From contig JAUNSC010000034.1 in assembly GCA_030539395.1 (NCBI GenBank), forward strand, positions 1 through 34,525: a stretch of DNA of 34,525 nucleotides. The letters are read 5' to 3'. The position numbers were made by a program, and so were the translations under genes. This stretch comes from Eubacteriales bacterium (lineage in GTDB: Bacteria; Bacillota; Clostridia; Lachnospirales; Lachnospiraceae). Below are positions 13,814 to 19,911 of this stretch, in pieces; position 1 is the stretch's first letter, and the number at the start of each line of letters is the position of its first letter. The notes under the pieces are model-generated. The model did not search any database. It saw nothing but the letters and a program-made list of their open reading frames with translations, and was not told where the DNA came from.

Positions 13814-14221
13814 ATGAAAGTAGCAGTAACTTATGAAAACGGACAGATTTTCCAGCATTTCGGACACACGGCACAGTTTAAGCTGTACGAGGTGGAAAAC
13901 GGACAGATTGTGAAAGAACAGGTAGTAGATACTCTGGGAAGCGGACATGGAGCACTGGCTGGATTTCTGGTAAATTCAGGAGTTGATACACTTATCTGCG
14001 GCGGGATTGGCGGTGGTGCCCAGGCTGCTCTGGCTGAAGCCGGTATCAGGCTTTTCGGCGGCGTATCAGGTGATGCAGATGCAGCGGTTAAAGCGCTGGC
14101 AGAAGGAAATCTGGCATATAATCCGAATGTTCAGTGCAGCCATCATAATCATGAGGGACATGGACATTCCTGTGGAGAACATCACTGCGGTGAAGACAAA
14201 CATGGATGTACAGGTCACTAA
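13814..14221 (+). CDS. NifB/NifX-family protein with His/Cys-rich tail
   Basis: This 135-residue protein has an N-terminal dinitrogenase iron-molybdenum cofactor biosynthesis fold (PF02579, residues 1-103; QHFGHTAQFKLYEVENGQI and DTLICGGIGGGAQAALAEAGI are typical) and a tail that in 28 residues contains nine His and four Cys (108-135). Such small proteins occur widely in non-nitrogen-fixing anaerobes and are not evidence of nitrogenase. The tail looks like a metal-binding or metal-storage segment. The ribosome site is AAAGGAG. The gene lies 16 bp after the asparagine-synthetase-like gene and is surely cotranscribed with it. Its physiological partner is not known. Confidence 0.87.
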   Translation: MKVAVTYENGQIFQHFGHTAQFKLYEVENGQIVKEQVVDTLGSGHGALAGFLVNSGVDTLICGGIGGGAQAALAEAGIRLFGGVSGDADAAVKALAEGNLAYNPNVQCSHHNHEGHGHSCGEHHCGEDKHGCTGH

Positions 14222-14989: not shown

Positions 14990-15031
14990 GAAAATCCTGC
15001 AGTTCAAAGAATATTGGACTGCAGGATTTTC
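14990..15031. terminator. Bidirectional terminator hairpin
   Basis: GAAAATCCTGCAGTTC (14990-15005) pairs with GGACTGCAGGATTTTC (15016-15031), about 16 bp with one wobble, around a 10-base loop. T-rich sequence flanks it on both strands. It lies between the convergent SH3b and multicopper oxidase genes and can end both transcripts. Confidence 0.7.
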
Positions 15032-15093: not shown

Positions 15094-18000
15094 TTATTTA
15101 TCTCTGCACATACGTTTCCACATTTTGTGGCAGGCATTTTTGCATCGGCATCCAATGCCCTGTTTCATTACCCGGAAGATTCCCCACATGCCAGATTCCA
15201 CATCCCATTTCAGGCTGCCGGAGCGATAGAGATAGTCGCCGGGACAGGAAGCGCCATTCTTTAGTTCCATATCGAAGGTATTTCCGATACTGATGCCGCC
15301 CTGGAGCGGGATTACTCTGGAAAATGGATCTTCCGGCTGCTCCTTCCATTTATGACCATGAAGAGTGAATCCCACATTGCGTGGCTTATCTGCCGGCATC
15401 ATGGTGCGGAAAATAACCCGCTCACCTGCATAGGCTCTAAACAGTGGAGTTGCCGGATCGCCATGGATACGGCTGTTAAAAACTCTGGAAATCCGGACGT
15501 CATGTTTCAGCCTGTTGGCAAAACGCTCCGAGCGGTAATTATAACCTTTTTCTCCTGTATCTTCTGTATCGACAGCTTCTCCGTCTTCTTCCTGTATTGT
15601 CTTTACAAGTTCTCCGTTGGAATCCAGCATGCGGATACCGTTCTGGATCATTACCACACATTCCCGAAAGCTTTCCACACCGGGAGCAGTGATGACGGCT
15701 TCTTCATCATACAGTGCTCTGGAAAATGAGAAATTGCGGTACCATTTGGCACCGGCCGGTTCTATGAGAATAGCGCCGAATAATCCATGATATCTGTGGT
15801 TGCGCATATCTCCAAAAGAGTGGATAATGCAGGGACCGTATTCTTTATCTGCATACCATAGATATTTTTTGCTCTCTCCTGGGCCGACTGTCTGCTCTCT
15901 GTTGTTGTAGCCCACATTGATCCCTGAATCACAAACAGGGTCATAGTTTAGAAATTGAGGATTCAGGGAAACCCGCATGGAAGGCTGATGCTTAAAATCC
16001 AGAGGCACTCTCGGATAATCAAAAAATTCTACAGGCTGCGCCGGATTGAAAAGATTATGAAGCGTGACTTCGATCCATTCTCCCGCGTTTGCACGAAGAA
16101 TCAGGGGCCTGGGTTTATAATTTCCGCACAGTGCGCGGTCAGAATCCTCAATGGGGACAAACAGCAGTCCATCCGGGTCATGGTCACCATAGCGGTTATA
16201 GGAGATGTTCTGCTGCACGGCGGCAATTTCGTATTTGCGGATAACCGCATCCTTGTCAGGGCAGGGCGGAAGCGGTAAGATACGGTCTTTACCTTTGCAC
16301 AGAGGTTTCAATCGTTTTACGGGATAGTCATATGCACGCAGGATACCCCAAAGTCCCAGCCATGTGTCATCAATTCCTCCAAAGTAGTAGAGATAATCCC
16401 CTGGTCCATATTTTTTTGTGATTCGAAGGTTAAAGGCTTCAGATATACCGATTGTCTGAGAGGCTGCAGTGGGAGAATGGGGATCTGCGATTTCCCGGTG
16501 CCAGGACATTCCGGTAAGGTTGAAGGCGTGCTGCTCTTCATGCGCTCCATCCAGAAGACGGATTATAATCTCATCTCCCGGGTAGGTTTCAAGGATTGGG
16601 GTGGCAGGGTCTCCGTGAACCAGGGAACTAAAAATATAAGCAGGATCCTCCTTTTTCTTCAGGCGCTCCCGCATAGGTTCACAGCGGTAGTTGATACCCA
16701 TCACACCGGGATCATCATGGGAACCGGGAACTTCCGGAGGATTTAGAGCGTTTCCGTTTTTATCAAAGAGGAATGCAAAATCATGGACAAACAGGACAAA
16801 TTCCCGGAAGGAAGTACCATCTCTGCGGCGAATGACCGCCTGGGAACCTCTCCGCAGTTCTTTACCGCTGCGGATGCTGTGGAATGTGGCTCCGGCTTCC
16901 TCAATGATCATTGCACCGAATACACCGTGCATCTGGTGGGAATTGGCAAACAGATGATCATGGAAAAAGACTGTGCGAAGCTCTGTGTCTGCAAAAAAAC
17001 GTTCAATAAGAGTCTCATATTTTCTGGCTCCGGCAATATTGTTCCATCCGTTTGCAGCGCCATCTGATACGATAGTATCGAATTTTACCAGGTGTACATG
17101 AAAACCTGTAATATCTGTTAAAGTTTTTAATTGAAAAGGACTTTCCTCAAGATATTCCGGAAGCAGATTTGTAAAGCGGATCTCAATACAGTCTCCGGCA
17201 TTGGCCCGTATGACAAGCGGCTCCACACGAATTTTCTGTTCTTCCACTTTGCGGATATAGCGGTCAAGGCCACCGTGATACTCCAGATCTTCTTTCAGGA
17301 CAAAGAAACGTCCCTGGGGATCGTTCCAGCCATAGCGGTTATAGGTCACTTTAGCCTGGACGAGAGCAATTTCAAATATCTTCACGTTGGATTCATCCTG
17401 ACTGCAGGAAGTATGCAGACAGCATTTTTTCTCCGGCAGGCAGGGGCAGGTTTCAGAATAAAGAGCGCCGGGGACATGGTTTTCTGTGAAATTAGCGCGT
17501 TCCAGATCAGTGGGTTCAATTTTATTGCTGCCGTCAGGATTTAAGATGCCCAGAGGAGGCTGCAGGGGACGTTCGCCAAAGGTTCCGTTGATAAAGCCTG
17601 GATAGCCTGGATGGGTGTCATCTTTTAGTGGCGGTGCGATTCTGTCTTTTAATGGAATCAGCGGTGGAATTACTGTGCCATCCGGAAGTTTTCCGGTGCC
17701 ATCCTCCAGGCGGTCGTGGATTCGCCATAAGGTCCACATCCCTTCATGAAAGTGCGGATAAAGGTGGCAGTGAAAGATTACATCACCGATGGTTTCGGTC
17801 AGGCTTCCCGCACCATGAAGAATATCAAGGGTATAGCATTCCTGAGGACCAAGCGTAATGGAGTCTAAAATGGTGGAAACCGGGTTATCTGCCTCCAGGC
17901 GCCATTGATGATTGTGGAGGTGGAAAACATGGGTTTCCTTAATTCCTCCGTGGATCAGCCGGATTTTTGCAGGGTCACCTGCGTAAGCCCGCAAAATGGG

Positions 18001-18792
18001 CGGAGCCGGATCACCATAAACCCAGGAACTCATGGAAATATCTTCTCCGCTGTCCGTGTGTTCATTGGTCAAAGGCTCGCGGTTGCGCATGGGTTCAGAC
18101 CGATAACTGATTCCTGTGGTGGAAGAAGGAAGACCGGTGTGGGGATCTACAGGCGGGTTGCCGTTTTTGTCCCGGATTTCCAGCTCATCGTGAAAGAATA
18201 CGGCATATTCCCGGAAAGCCGGCTTGCCGGGGGAATAAATATCTGCGAAAAGGCCGCTTTCCAACTCATCGCCTGTCTGAGGGTCCAGCCATTTTGACTG
18301 TGGGGCTTCTACGATTATGGCACCAAAAAGCCCGTGTATATTGGTTCCCTCTTCACTGCTTCTGGTATCACCCATATCGTGAAACAGATACACACCTTCC
18401 CGGTCTGCATACCAGGTGTAGGTGATCTGATTTCGGGTGGTGGTATCCTTATTAAATCCCACATTTGCTCCGTCGGATGTCTGCACATCATATTCCATTC
18501 CCAGAACATGGATGGAAAGTGTGCGGTTTAGCGAATGGGAAAAAGAAATCACAACTTTTTCCCCGACATTTGCCCGTATGACCAGCGGCTTTACTTCATC
18601 ATAGGGCTGGGGGATTTCACAGGAAAAATTGCGCAGGGCTCCTTCACGGACGCGTTCGGCATCTTTTTTCAGCACGTACAAAAGCCCGTTGGGGTCATGA
18701 TCTCCGTATTTGTTATAAACAACAGGTATTTCAATGGCTTCAATTTCGTAATATCTTATCTGGTCGGGACAGGGATAATTGCAAAGTTCCAT
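15094..18792 (-). CDS. Six-cupredoxin multicopper oxidase (MnxG-like)
   Basis: This 1232-residue protein is built of three tandem copies of a two-cupredoxin unit starting near residues 15, 471 and 852; each copy opens with an NKYG/NRYG-x-x-DPxG segment and repeats GDPAxPI near 260, 727 and 1111. One complete copper ligand set is visible. Type 1 copper would use His288, Cys342, His347 and Met352 (HCHLYPHFHEGM). The trinuclear site would use His291, His293, His341, His343, His565, His567, His611 and His613. The equivalent sites in copy 3 are degenerate. There is no signal peptide. Length and domain count resemble the Bacillus manganese oxidase MnxG. The tail has a CRCKNACH motif, and a Cys cluster lies at 449-463. 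AGGAGG precedes the ATG. A DUF2935 gene lies 11 bp upstream. The substrate is unknown. Confidence 0.88.
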   Translation of the reverse strand: MELCNYPCPDQIRYYEIEAIEIPVVYNKYGDHDPNGLLYVLKKDAERVREGALRNFSCEIPQPYDEVKPLVIRANVGEKVVISFSHSLNRTLSIHVLGMEYDVQTSDGANVGFNKDTTTRNQITYTWYADREGVYLFHDMGDTRSSEEGTNIHGLFGAIIVEAPQSKWLDPQTGDELESGLFADIYSPGKPAFREYAVFFHDELEIRDKNGNPPVDPHTGLPSSTTGISYRSEPMRNREPLTNEHTDSGEDISMSSWVYGDPAPPILRAYAGDPAKIRLIHGGIKETHVFHLHNHQWRLEADNPVSTILDSITLGPQECYTLDILHGAGSLTETIGDVIFHCHLYPHFHEGMWTLWRIHDRLEDGTGKLPDGTVIPPLIPLKDRIAPPLKDDTHPGYPGFINGTFGERPLQPPLGILNPDGSNKIEPTDLERANFTENHVPGALYSETCPCLPEKKCCLHTSCSQDESNVKIFEIALVQAKVTYNRYGWNDPQGRFFVLKEDLEYHGGLDRYIRKVEEQKIRVEPLVIRANAGDCIEIRFTNLLPEYLEESPFQLKTLTDITGFHVHLVKFDTIVSDGAANGWNNIAGARKYETLIERFFADTELRTVFFHDHLFANSHQMHGVFGAMIIEEAGATFHSIRSGKELRRGSQAVIRRRDGTSFREFVLFVHDFAFLFDKNGNALNPPEVPGSHDDPGVMGINYRCEPMRERLKKKEDPAYIFSSLVHGDPATPILETYPGDEIIIRLLDGAHEEQHAFNLTGMSWHREIADPHSPTAASQTIGISEAFNLRITKKYGPGDYLYYFGGIDDTWLGLWGILRAYDYPVKRLKPLCKGKDRILPLPPCPDKDAVIRKYEIAAVQQNISYNRYGDHDPDGLLFVPIEDSDRALCGNYKPRPLILRANAGEWIEVTLHNLFNPAQPVEFFDYPRVPLDFKHQPSMRVSLNPQFLNYDPVCDSGINVGYNNREQTVGPGESKKYLWYADKEYGPCIIHSFGDMRNHRYHGLFGAILIEPAGAKWYRNFSFSRALYDEEAVITAPGVESFRECVVMIQNGIRMLDSNGELVKTIQEEDGEAVDTEDTGEKGYNYRSERFANRLKHDVRISRVFNSRIHGDPATPLFRAYAGERVIFRTMMPADKPRNVGFTLHGHKWKEQPEDPFSRVIPLQGGISIGNTFDMELKNGASCPGDYLYRSGSLKWDVESGMWGIFRVMKQGIGCRCKNACHKMWKRMCRDK

Positions 18793-18803
18793 TTGAATAC
18801 CTC

Positions 18804-19712
18804 CTATCGTGTTCGGCCGGTTTCCAGCACACGTATATAGTGGTTGGCTTCCCGGAGCACGTGATCTGCCAGCAGTGGAAGAATGATAGAGGAAATCCGG
18901 CAGTCAAGGATGCCTTTTGTGCCGGCTGCTTTAAAGTCGCGGTATTTTAGTGTCTCATCCAGGGCCTTTTCTGTCATGGCATTTGCACGGCAGTTCTGCT
19001 GGCAGGCCATATTGATCAGTTGTGCATAGTCCCTGGAAAACTGATCGGCTGTTTCAATGAGCTGTTCTTCGGACGGGTCTAAAAGTCCGCGGATGAACCA
19101 CGCGTGCTCCATCATGATCTGATTCCAGAAGGCTTCGGTTTCATATAGATTCTGATAGGAAATGCTTCTGTTTGCCATAATCTGTTCCACTATGTCGCGG
19201 TACAATCTGGCTTCCCGGGTGATGTGTTCGATGAGAAGAGGATAATTGGTGGTGAAAAGTTGTCCGTTCACCATTTTGCACAGAATACATTCCTTAAAAT
19301 GGATCAATTCATTTAAAAGCCCGAGGGCGCGTTCATTAATTCGCTGAACAGGCTGATACAGAGAACGGTTTTCGCTTTGTATACAATTACAGGGCAGCTG
19401 TCGGGTTATTCGGGAAATGTCACTGTCAATGGGAATACCGCTTAAGGTTTCCGTCTTTTTTTCAGCGAAAATTGTAAATTCTGTAATCAGTTCACCAGAA
19501 TTTAAAACAGATTCATGGATGCTGCCTTCGGCAATTTTAAGGACGTCTCGTAAAAGTTCTTCAAATTTCCGGCGAAAACGGTCCGCTTCCTCGATATATT
19601 CTTTTTCACAGCAGGGGAATCCCGCTTCCAGAAAAAGAGAGTGTTCTTTCATAATTCTTGCAAAAAACAAATGGGTTTCTATTGAAAGGATAACATAATC
19701 TCTCATAAGCAT
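18804..19712 (-). CDS. DUF2935 ferritin-like protein, internally duplicated
   Basis: This 302-residue helical protein is made of two copies of a ferritin-like unit. Copy 1 has HLFFARIMKEHSLFLEAGF and copy 2 has EAFWNQIMMEHAWFIRGLL. Each is followed by an E-x-AD-x-F-x-R-D/K helix, and the partner helices PLLIEHITREARLYRDIVE and PLLADHVLREANHYIRVLE also match. The conserved Glu and His suggest a dinuclear metal site per bundle, which is typical of DUF2935. The family occurs mainly in spore-forming Firmicutes, and its function is not established. It is the first gene of the operon with the giant multicopper oxidase, so the two likely act together. The start is set by AAGG 5 bases upstream of the ATG at 19712. 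Confidence 0.85.
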   Translation of the reverse strand: MLMRDYVILSIETHLFFARIMKEHSLFLEAGFPCCEKEYIEEADRFRRKFEELLRDVLKIAEGSIHESVLNSGELITEFTIFAEKKTETLSGIPIDSDISRITRQLPCNCIQSENRSLYQPVQRINERALGLLNELIHFKECILCKMVNGQLFTTNYPLLIEHITREARLYRDIVEQIMANRSISYQNLYETEAFWNQIMMEHAWFIRGLLDPSEEQLIETADQFSRDYAQLINMACQQNCRANAMTEKALDETLKYRDFKAAGTKGILDCRISSIILPLLADHVLREANHYIRVLETGRTR

Positions 19713-19740: not shown

Positions 19741-19749
19741 TAGTATATG
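19741..19749 (-). promoter_or_regulatory. Possible sporulation-type -10 element
   Basis: Read on the minus strand, CATATACTA matches the CATA-N3-TA -10 consensus shared by sigma-E and sigma-K, 29 bases ahead of the DUF2935 gene. I see no good matching -35, and the contained TATACT could equally be a vegetative -10. The call is tentative. Confidence 0.3.
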
Positions 19750-19884: not shown

Positions 19885-19911
19885 TTAGCACTCACTATTG
19901 ACGAGTGCTAA
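19885..19911 (+). promoter_or_regulatory. CIRCE element (HrcA operator)
   Basis: TTAGCACTC-N9-GAGTGCTAA is a perfect 9-bp inverted repeat with the canonical nine-base spacer. It lies between the clpB promoter and start codon and marks clpB as an HrcA-repressed heat-shock gene in this organism. Confidence 0.97.

Follow-up and report, generated by a model that had tools for sequence, protein, structure and literature searches.

What use could an anaerobic member of the Clostridia make of an enzyme that requires O2? The question is raised by a multicopper oxidase (MCO) gene and its neighbour in the window, by which we mean the whole stretch of 34,525 nucleotides analysed here, contig C43 of a 3.37 Mb genome that is 94% complete (93.9%) and whose host is probably a member of the Lachnospiraceae, as the original prediction had it. 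The features that concern us are the following:

14990..15031, no strand assigned: 18-pair stem-loop, a possible terminator, between the MCO stop codon and a convergent SH3-like gene (terminator scan of the region)
15094..18792, minus strand: MnxG-type multicopper oxidase, 1232 aa (end-to-end match to 9bxa_A; ligand columns in 81 aligned full-length rows)
18804..19712, minus strand: two-repeat DUF2935 protein, 302 aa, or 300 aa if the start is at 19706 (Pfam PF11155; relatives 3d19/3dby)
19741..19749, minus strand: CATATACTA, a putative −10 element of sigma-K/sigma-E type before the pair (upstream comparison; consensus from the accessible part of PMC3789822)

Both genes are open reading frames on the minus strand, with the DUF2935 gene upstream and an 11 bp gap between them, which bears out the two-gene unit proposed in the original prediction. 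The stem-loop has the longest stem among the nine terminator-like sites of the region, where shuffled sequence gave a mean of 5.1. None of the four genes scanned nearest to the pair, for asparagine synthase, a NifX-like protein, an SH3-like protein and ClpB, is a metal transporter or metal sensor, as judged by its matches. The NifX-type (dinitrogenase iron-molybdenum cofactor) domain protein, at 13814-14221, ends in a His/Cys-rich C-terminal tail that is perhaps metal-binding, and a perfect inverted repeat, TTAGCACTC-N9-GAGTGCTAA, precedes clpB at 19885-19911 and is consistent with a CIRCE operator of HrcA.

The kinship to MnxG and the duplicated partner that had been read from this locus stood up to closer analysis. 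The MCO matched Bacillus MnxG (9bxa_A) end to end, residues 12-1211 against 2-1206, with E = 0 and 1042 bits, and its final 508 residues also aligned, more weakly, to earlier repeats of MnxG, which supports the six cupredoxin domains; Pfam itself recognized two domain families only, with one best stretch each. Inspection of the N-terminus by eye revealed no apparent signal peptide. The protein missed the cut-off of the NCBIfam model NF041487 (copper_ox_MnxG), scoring 316.3 bits against 3100; that model spans 1894 positions and seems to have been built on larger MnxG proteins, the MnxG of Bacillus PL-12 being 1227 aa long.

Copper ligands were assigned by motif: H288, C342 and H347, with M352 axial, at the type 1 (T1) site; H291 and H565 at T2; and H293, H341, H343, H567, H611 and H613 at T3. 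This layout, with T1 in domain 2 and T2/T3 common to domains 2 and 3, is the one that the accessible text of PMC3600357 gives for bacterial six-domain MCOs, in which the trinuclear site lies between domains 2 and 3. All 11 ligands and M352 are complete in the window copy and in 79 of 81 aligned rows, which were chosen for full length, contain 69 of the best 80 of 175 MCO loci, and include the window copy, seven exact duplicates (six of them across collections, the seventh on a pair of Priestia plasmids) and two distinct outgroups, Priestia and Pseudonocardia. The exceptions are a Clostridia copy (L065) in which one His is missing and the Pseudonocardia outgroup, in which several are; without the window copy and the duplicates, the set is complete in 71 of 73 rows. 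To judge from its sequence, the MCO would thus be an active copper oxidase. One candidate difference at the T1 site, an Ala in 9bxa_A opposite H347 of the window protein, was dropped, since His occupies that position in all 81 aligned rows. The Ala at the second T1 His of the deposited chain A may reflect engineering or strain variation; published mnxG primers specify the peptide HCHLYPH, according to the available portion of PMC3039467.

Beyond the catalytic core, at least two Cys follow residue 1206 in 72 of 82 rows, window copy and duplicates included. This Cys-rich tail is missing in Clostridium neonatale, C. cuniculi, Terrisporobacter, Priestia and a few other rows; speculatively, it may serve coat cross-linking or metal loading. 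A tree of 42 rows, built with a quick method and without L087 and L094, for neither of which a full-length ORF was kept, united the window copy and 36 relatives, L099 among them, in one clade (SH-aLRT 100). The MnxG proteins of Priestia and of a member of the host's bacterial family, G265, were joined outside it (96), on long branches whose grouping, as the program itself cautions, may be spurious. The L099 protein, from a record titled Methanosarcina sp. Ant1, is 66% identical to the window MCO and groups with that of Clostridium methylpentosum; its contig may have been misassigned to the archaeon.

The partner matched Pfam PF11155 (DUF2935) with 219.6 bits against a gathering score of 24.4, in two stretches that both lie within the single frame 18804-19712, whose start may be the ATG at 19706 rather than 19712, as judged by eye from a conserved leader. 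Its fold may be ferritin-like. Among solved structures, those closest to it in sequence are 3d19, annotated as 'Conserved metalloprotein', and 3dby, an 'uncharacterized protein'. The residues E23/H24, H163/E167, E202/H203 and H284/E288 are invariant across 24 aligned copies and constitute candidate metal ligands.

The association of the two genes extends well beyond this strain, one of the points on which the original prediction had staked its refutation. A contig search found 175 MCO relatives, of which the best 80 were retained as loci, and in 56 of these 80 a DUF2935 gene adjoins the MCO or lies near it. Fifty of the best 80 loci carry it upstream on the same strand, with match ends no more than 100 bp apart in 48 and 0.6 and 1.6 kb apart in L057 and L087; in the others it is upstream and divergent (three loci), downstream on the same strand (two) or downstream and convergent (one). 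Such a variety of arrangements, four in all, argues against the mere inheritance of a single block. In 17 of the best 80 loci, all of them with 1 kb or more of sequence to either side, no DUF2935 gene was found near the MCO, which suggests that the oxidase may manage without it; nor was one found in a further seven with less than 1 kb on the left. When neighbouring ORFs were clustered in search of a conserved third gene, only MCO and DUF2935 exceeded 14 loci; the 14-locus cluster resembles ABC ATPases by eye and may be a paralogue set.

The two genes also co-occur at the level of whole genomes. Among 299 genomes of the host's bacterial family, the MCO was detected in 18 (10 full-length and eight partial) and DUF2935 in 49, the latter being found in 17 of the 18 MCO-positive genomes versus 32 of the 281 others (Fisher P = 5e-14; P = 9e-11 inside spoIVA-positive genomes), with fragments scored as matches and with a shared ancestry of the genomes that makes these P values overstate independence. 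Some of the eight partial MCO copies are broken and some are perhaps cut at contig ends. Decay of the pair is visible in L059, where a DUF2935 remnant (1035-1210) jumps from the first KEH motif into the last HVLREANHY motif, and the pair is fragmentary or interrupted also in L013, L017, L019, L060, L062 and L088.

A clue to when these genes might be expressed came from the sequences before DUF2935, 59 upstreams of which 52 were distinct. The motif CATANNNTA occurs at −60 to −28 in 39 of the 52 versus 10 of 354 upstreams of other ORFs at the same loci, whose starts were placed by a fixed rule at the first ATG, a procedure that could lower the control rate somewhat. Within 100 bp it is found in 41 of the 52, where shuffled sequences gave 3.1 on average and 7 at most. 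The available text of PMC3789822 describes, for C. difficile, very similar −10 elements of sigma-K and sigma-E, with AC as the −35 of the former and ATA as that of the latter. The motif combined with AC at 16-18 nt was present in 25 of 52 DUF2935 upstreams versus 3 of 354 controls. Among the 48 upstreams having CATANNNT at −60 to −28, AC stood 16-18 nt before the −10 in 29 and in 4-10 for each of nine other three-wide windows, while the sigma-E type ATA appeared once at spacing 13 and never at 14-17. The window copy has the −10 at 19741-19749 and lacks the sigma-K −35 AC at 16-18 nt. Among MCO genes without a DUF2935 gene immediately before them in the same orientation, 5 of 26 upstreams examined passed the fixed promoter test, and several of those that failed have near matches by eye. 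Used as a regulon finder in the own genome, the strict form CATATANTATA gave 16 sites versus 23 for the reversed control pattern, that is, no enrichment. DUF2935 genes from 20 MCO-negative genomes (L152-L171), hand-picked among the stronger hits from the 32 family genomes with DUF2935 and no MCO, carried the −10 in 12 cases and AC as well in eight; since these sigma-K-like promoters occur without the oxidase, DUF2935 may have a place in sporulation independently of the MCO.

Sporulation genes themselves point in the same direction. A match to spoIVA (TIGR02836) was obtained in 194 of the 299 family genomes, above the cut-off in 189. It was present in all 18 MCO-positive genomes versus 176 of the 281 others (P = 3e-4) and in all 49 DUF2935-positive genomes versus 145 of the 250 others (P = 5e-11), Fisher values that overstate independence for genomes sharing ancestry. 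In the family member G231 the pair directly follows spoIVA, in the order spoIVA, DUF2935, MCO. The own genome encodes sigK (301.5 bits against a curated cut-off of 298.65) and spo0A (360 bits against 200), and its spoIVA match (E = 1.2e-65) is weaker than in other carriers. This link of the MCO-DUF2935 pair to sporulation is a new result of the present analysis, and the pair is probably switched on only during spore formation, as far as its promoters and distribution allow us to judge.

The closest known system is the Mnx complex of Bacillus. According to the accessible text of PMC5622069, mnxE, mnxF and mnxG are all required for Mnx activity in Bacillus sp. PL-12, and in marine Bacillus manganese is oxidised by the spores and not by vegetative cells. 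In the structure 9bxa, MnxG is accompanied by three chains each of MnxE and MnxF, and on Priestia plasmids (L112) MnxE and MnxF, recognised because they match chains B and E of 9bxa, lie directly upstream of MnxG. The window pair resembles this system in the full-length homology to MnxG, the T1/trinuclear layout, the partner gene directly upstream and the link to spores, and differs from it in having DUF2935 in the MnxE/MnxF slot, in the anaerobic clostridial host and in the Cys-rich tail, which the Priestia copies lack. Neither MnxE nor MnxF gave a match at E ≤ 1 in the own genome, 93.9% complete. The MnxE query does work in the host's family, for it detected MnxE directly upstream of a divergent MnxG, 43-45% identical, in G265 (L134, C1:2455000-2461500); MnxF was not found even at that locus, so its absence from the own genome says little. 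Two arrangements, MnxE-MnxG and DUF2935-MCO, therefore exist within one bacterial family; the DUF2935 gene of G265 sits elsewhere in its genome, away from MnxG. By analogy of position, DUF2935 might functionally replace MnxE/MnxF. With both subunits required in Bacillus, according to the available part of PMC5622069, and neither found in the own genome, Mn oxidation should not be taken for granted.

Metalloproteins in the spore coat of an anaerobe have a precedent in CotCB and CotD of C. difficile, manganese catalases of the sigma-K regulon according to the accessible portion of PMC3789822, in whose main text the word 'oxidase' is absent. They belong to a protein family different from DUF2935 and are a possible analogue of it.

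Taken together, the data make it probable, in our judgement, that the window encodes a predicted sporulation operon, from which the mother cell would make, at a late stage, an MnxG of the spore coat that has DUF2935 as its partner and acts once the spore meets oxygen. What computation contributes to this reading is the homology, the intact copper ligands, the pairing, the co-occurrence with spoIVA and between the two genes, and the conserved promoter-like element; we infer sigma-K use, the spore-surface site, operation in air only, the substrate and the role of DUF2935. Late in sporulation, sigma-K in the mother cell would direct synthesis of the DUF2935 metalloprotein and then of the MnxG-type oxidase, and both would be laid down on the forespore surface, a deposition for which a signal peptide is unnecessary. 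The oxidase would lie idle in the anoxic gut and work after the spore is shed into air. The T1 copper of domain 2 would then accept single electrons and hand them on to the T2/T3 cluster, located between domains 2 and 3, for the reduction of O2 to water. The likeliest reductant would be a metal ion; homology points to Mn(II), and Fe(II) or Cu(I) are possible. The spore would thereby use up O2 and surround itself with a shell of metal oxide or of cross-linked material. DUF2935, in the place of MnxE/MnxF, would probably load or hold metal or clear peroxide. An oxidase of the spore coat that works after shedding renders O2 dependence in an anaerobe no paradox: the MCO is real, and the puzzle that the original prediction had seen in it largely dissolves if the product resides on dormant spores. 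Likewise, of the two locations proposed there, the promoter element and the co-occurrence with spoIVA favour the spore coat, the cytoplasm being the less favoured. Several observations count against the sporulation-operon reading, namely the absence of the AC −35 from the own promoter, the 5 of 26 passes among MCO upstreams without DUF2935 directly upstream, the 17 of 80 loci, with 1 kb or more on either side, where no DUF2935 gene was found beside the MCO, the failure to find MnxE/MnxF in the own genome, its weaker spoIVA match and the 8 of 18 partial MCO copies; the unenriched CATATANTATA lends it no support.

A spore-surface enzyme might also act as a laccase on organic compounds such as phenolics, bile pigments or coat tyrosines, yielding pigment or cross-links and not metal oxide. 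Bacillus CotA, a three-domain protein, would be the model, likewise an MCO of the spore coat. It makes a melanin-like pigment, according to the accessible text of PMC3192119, and with this precedent the general MCO character of the T1/T2/T3 core and the failure to find MnxE/MnxF in the own genome speak for such a substrate. The kinship, however, is to full-length MnxG with six domains, CotA was not among the PDB matches listed, and the partner DUF2935 is related to a metalloprotein, so that we regard a laccase of this kind as possible and on balance unlikely.

Far less probable, in our view, is a cytoplasmic pair of vegetative cells devoted to copper or iron detoxification or to O2 scavenging. 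It would suit an oxidase with no signal peptide apparent by eye, and related large MCOs on plasmids of Hymenobacter and Microvirga do lie a few kb or less from a gene for a heavy-metal P-type ATPase or of CusA type; yet the four genes scanned here offer no such neighbour, 39 of 52 upstreams bear a sporulation-type element, and spoIVA accompanies every MCO (18/18) and every DUF2935 (49/49) in the family. Nor do we think it at all likely that the pair is a relic being lost and devoid of present function. Erosion is evident in the partial copies that are all that 8 of the 18 MCO-positive genomes hold, in DUF2935 genes broken, interrupted or internally deleted at several loci, and in the presence of the MCO in just 18 of 299 genomes; against it stand the full-length frame and complete copper ligands here and in 79 of 81 rows (selected as full-length), and a promoter-like element retained across divergent loci.

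The original prediction knew of no description of such a system, a statement that holds in part. A 2013 publication (PMC3600357) had already listed MnxG-like proteins from Clostridium perfringens and C. methylpentosum; its accessible part gives phylogeny and copper sites for this same family and says nothing of DUF2935, of a promoter or of what the Clostridium proteins do. At the C. methylpentosum locus (L100) the MCO shows 68% identity and has a divergent DUF2935 neighbour. For the MnxG/DUF2935 pairing and its promoter we found no description in the literature searched, a body of text that leaves most subscription papers outside its scope and that, as far as accessible, mentions DUF2935 by name only in a Fusarium context. 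The oxidase family in Clostridia was thus already published, and the DUF2935 partner, the promoter and the sporulation link appear new against the literature searched.

The sporulation operon favoured here would extend the metal-oxidising spore from Bacillus to Clostridia, with a different partner protein. A bolder extension, which we consider doubtful, is that DUF2935 represents a new class of endospore-surface metalloproteins replacing MnxE/MnxF in Clostridia, and that the pair lets spores of strict anaerobes burn O2 in air and deposit an armour of Mn/Fe oxide, which would make gut anaerobes hidden biogenic metal oxidisers in faeces and soil. Overall, these data connect DUF2935, one of the domains of unknown function, with sporulation and, in many genera, with an oxidase. 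They also recast the seeming contradiction of an anaerobe whose enzyme requires O2 as an idea, open to test, on how gut anaerobes may survive in air between hosts.
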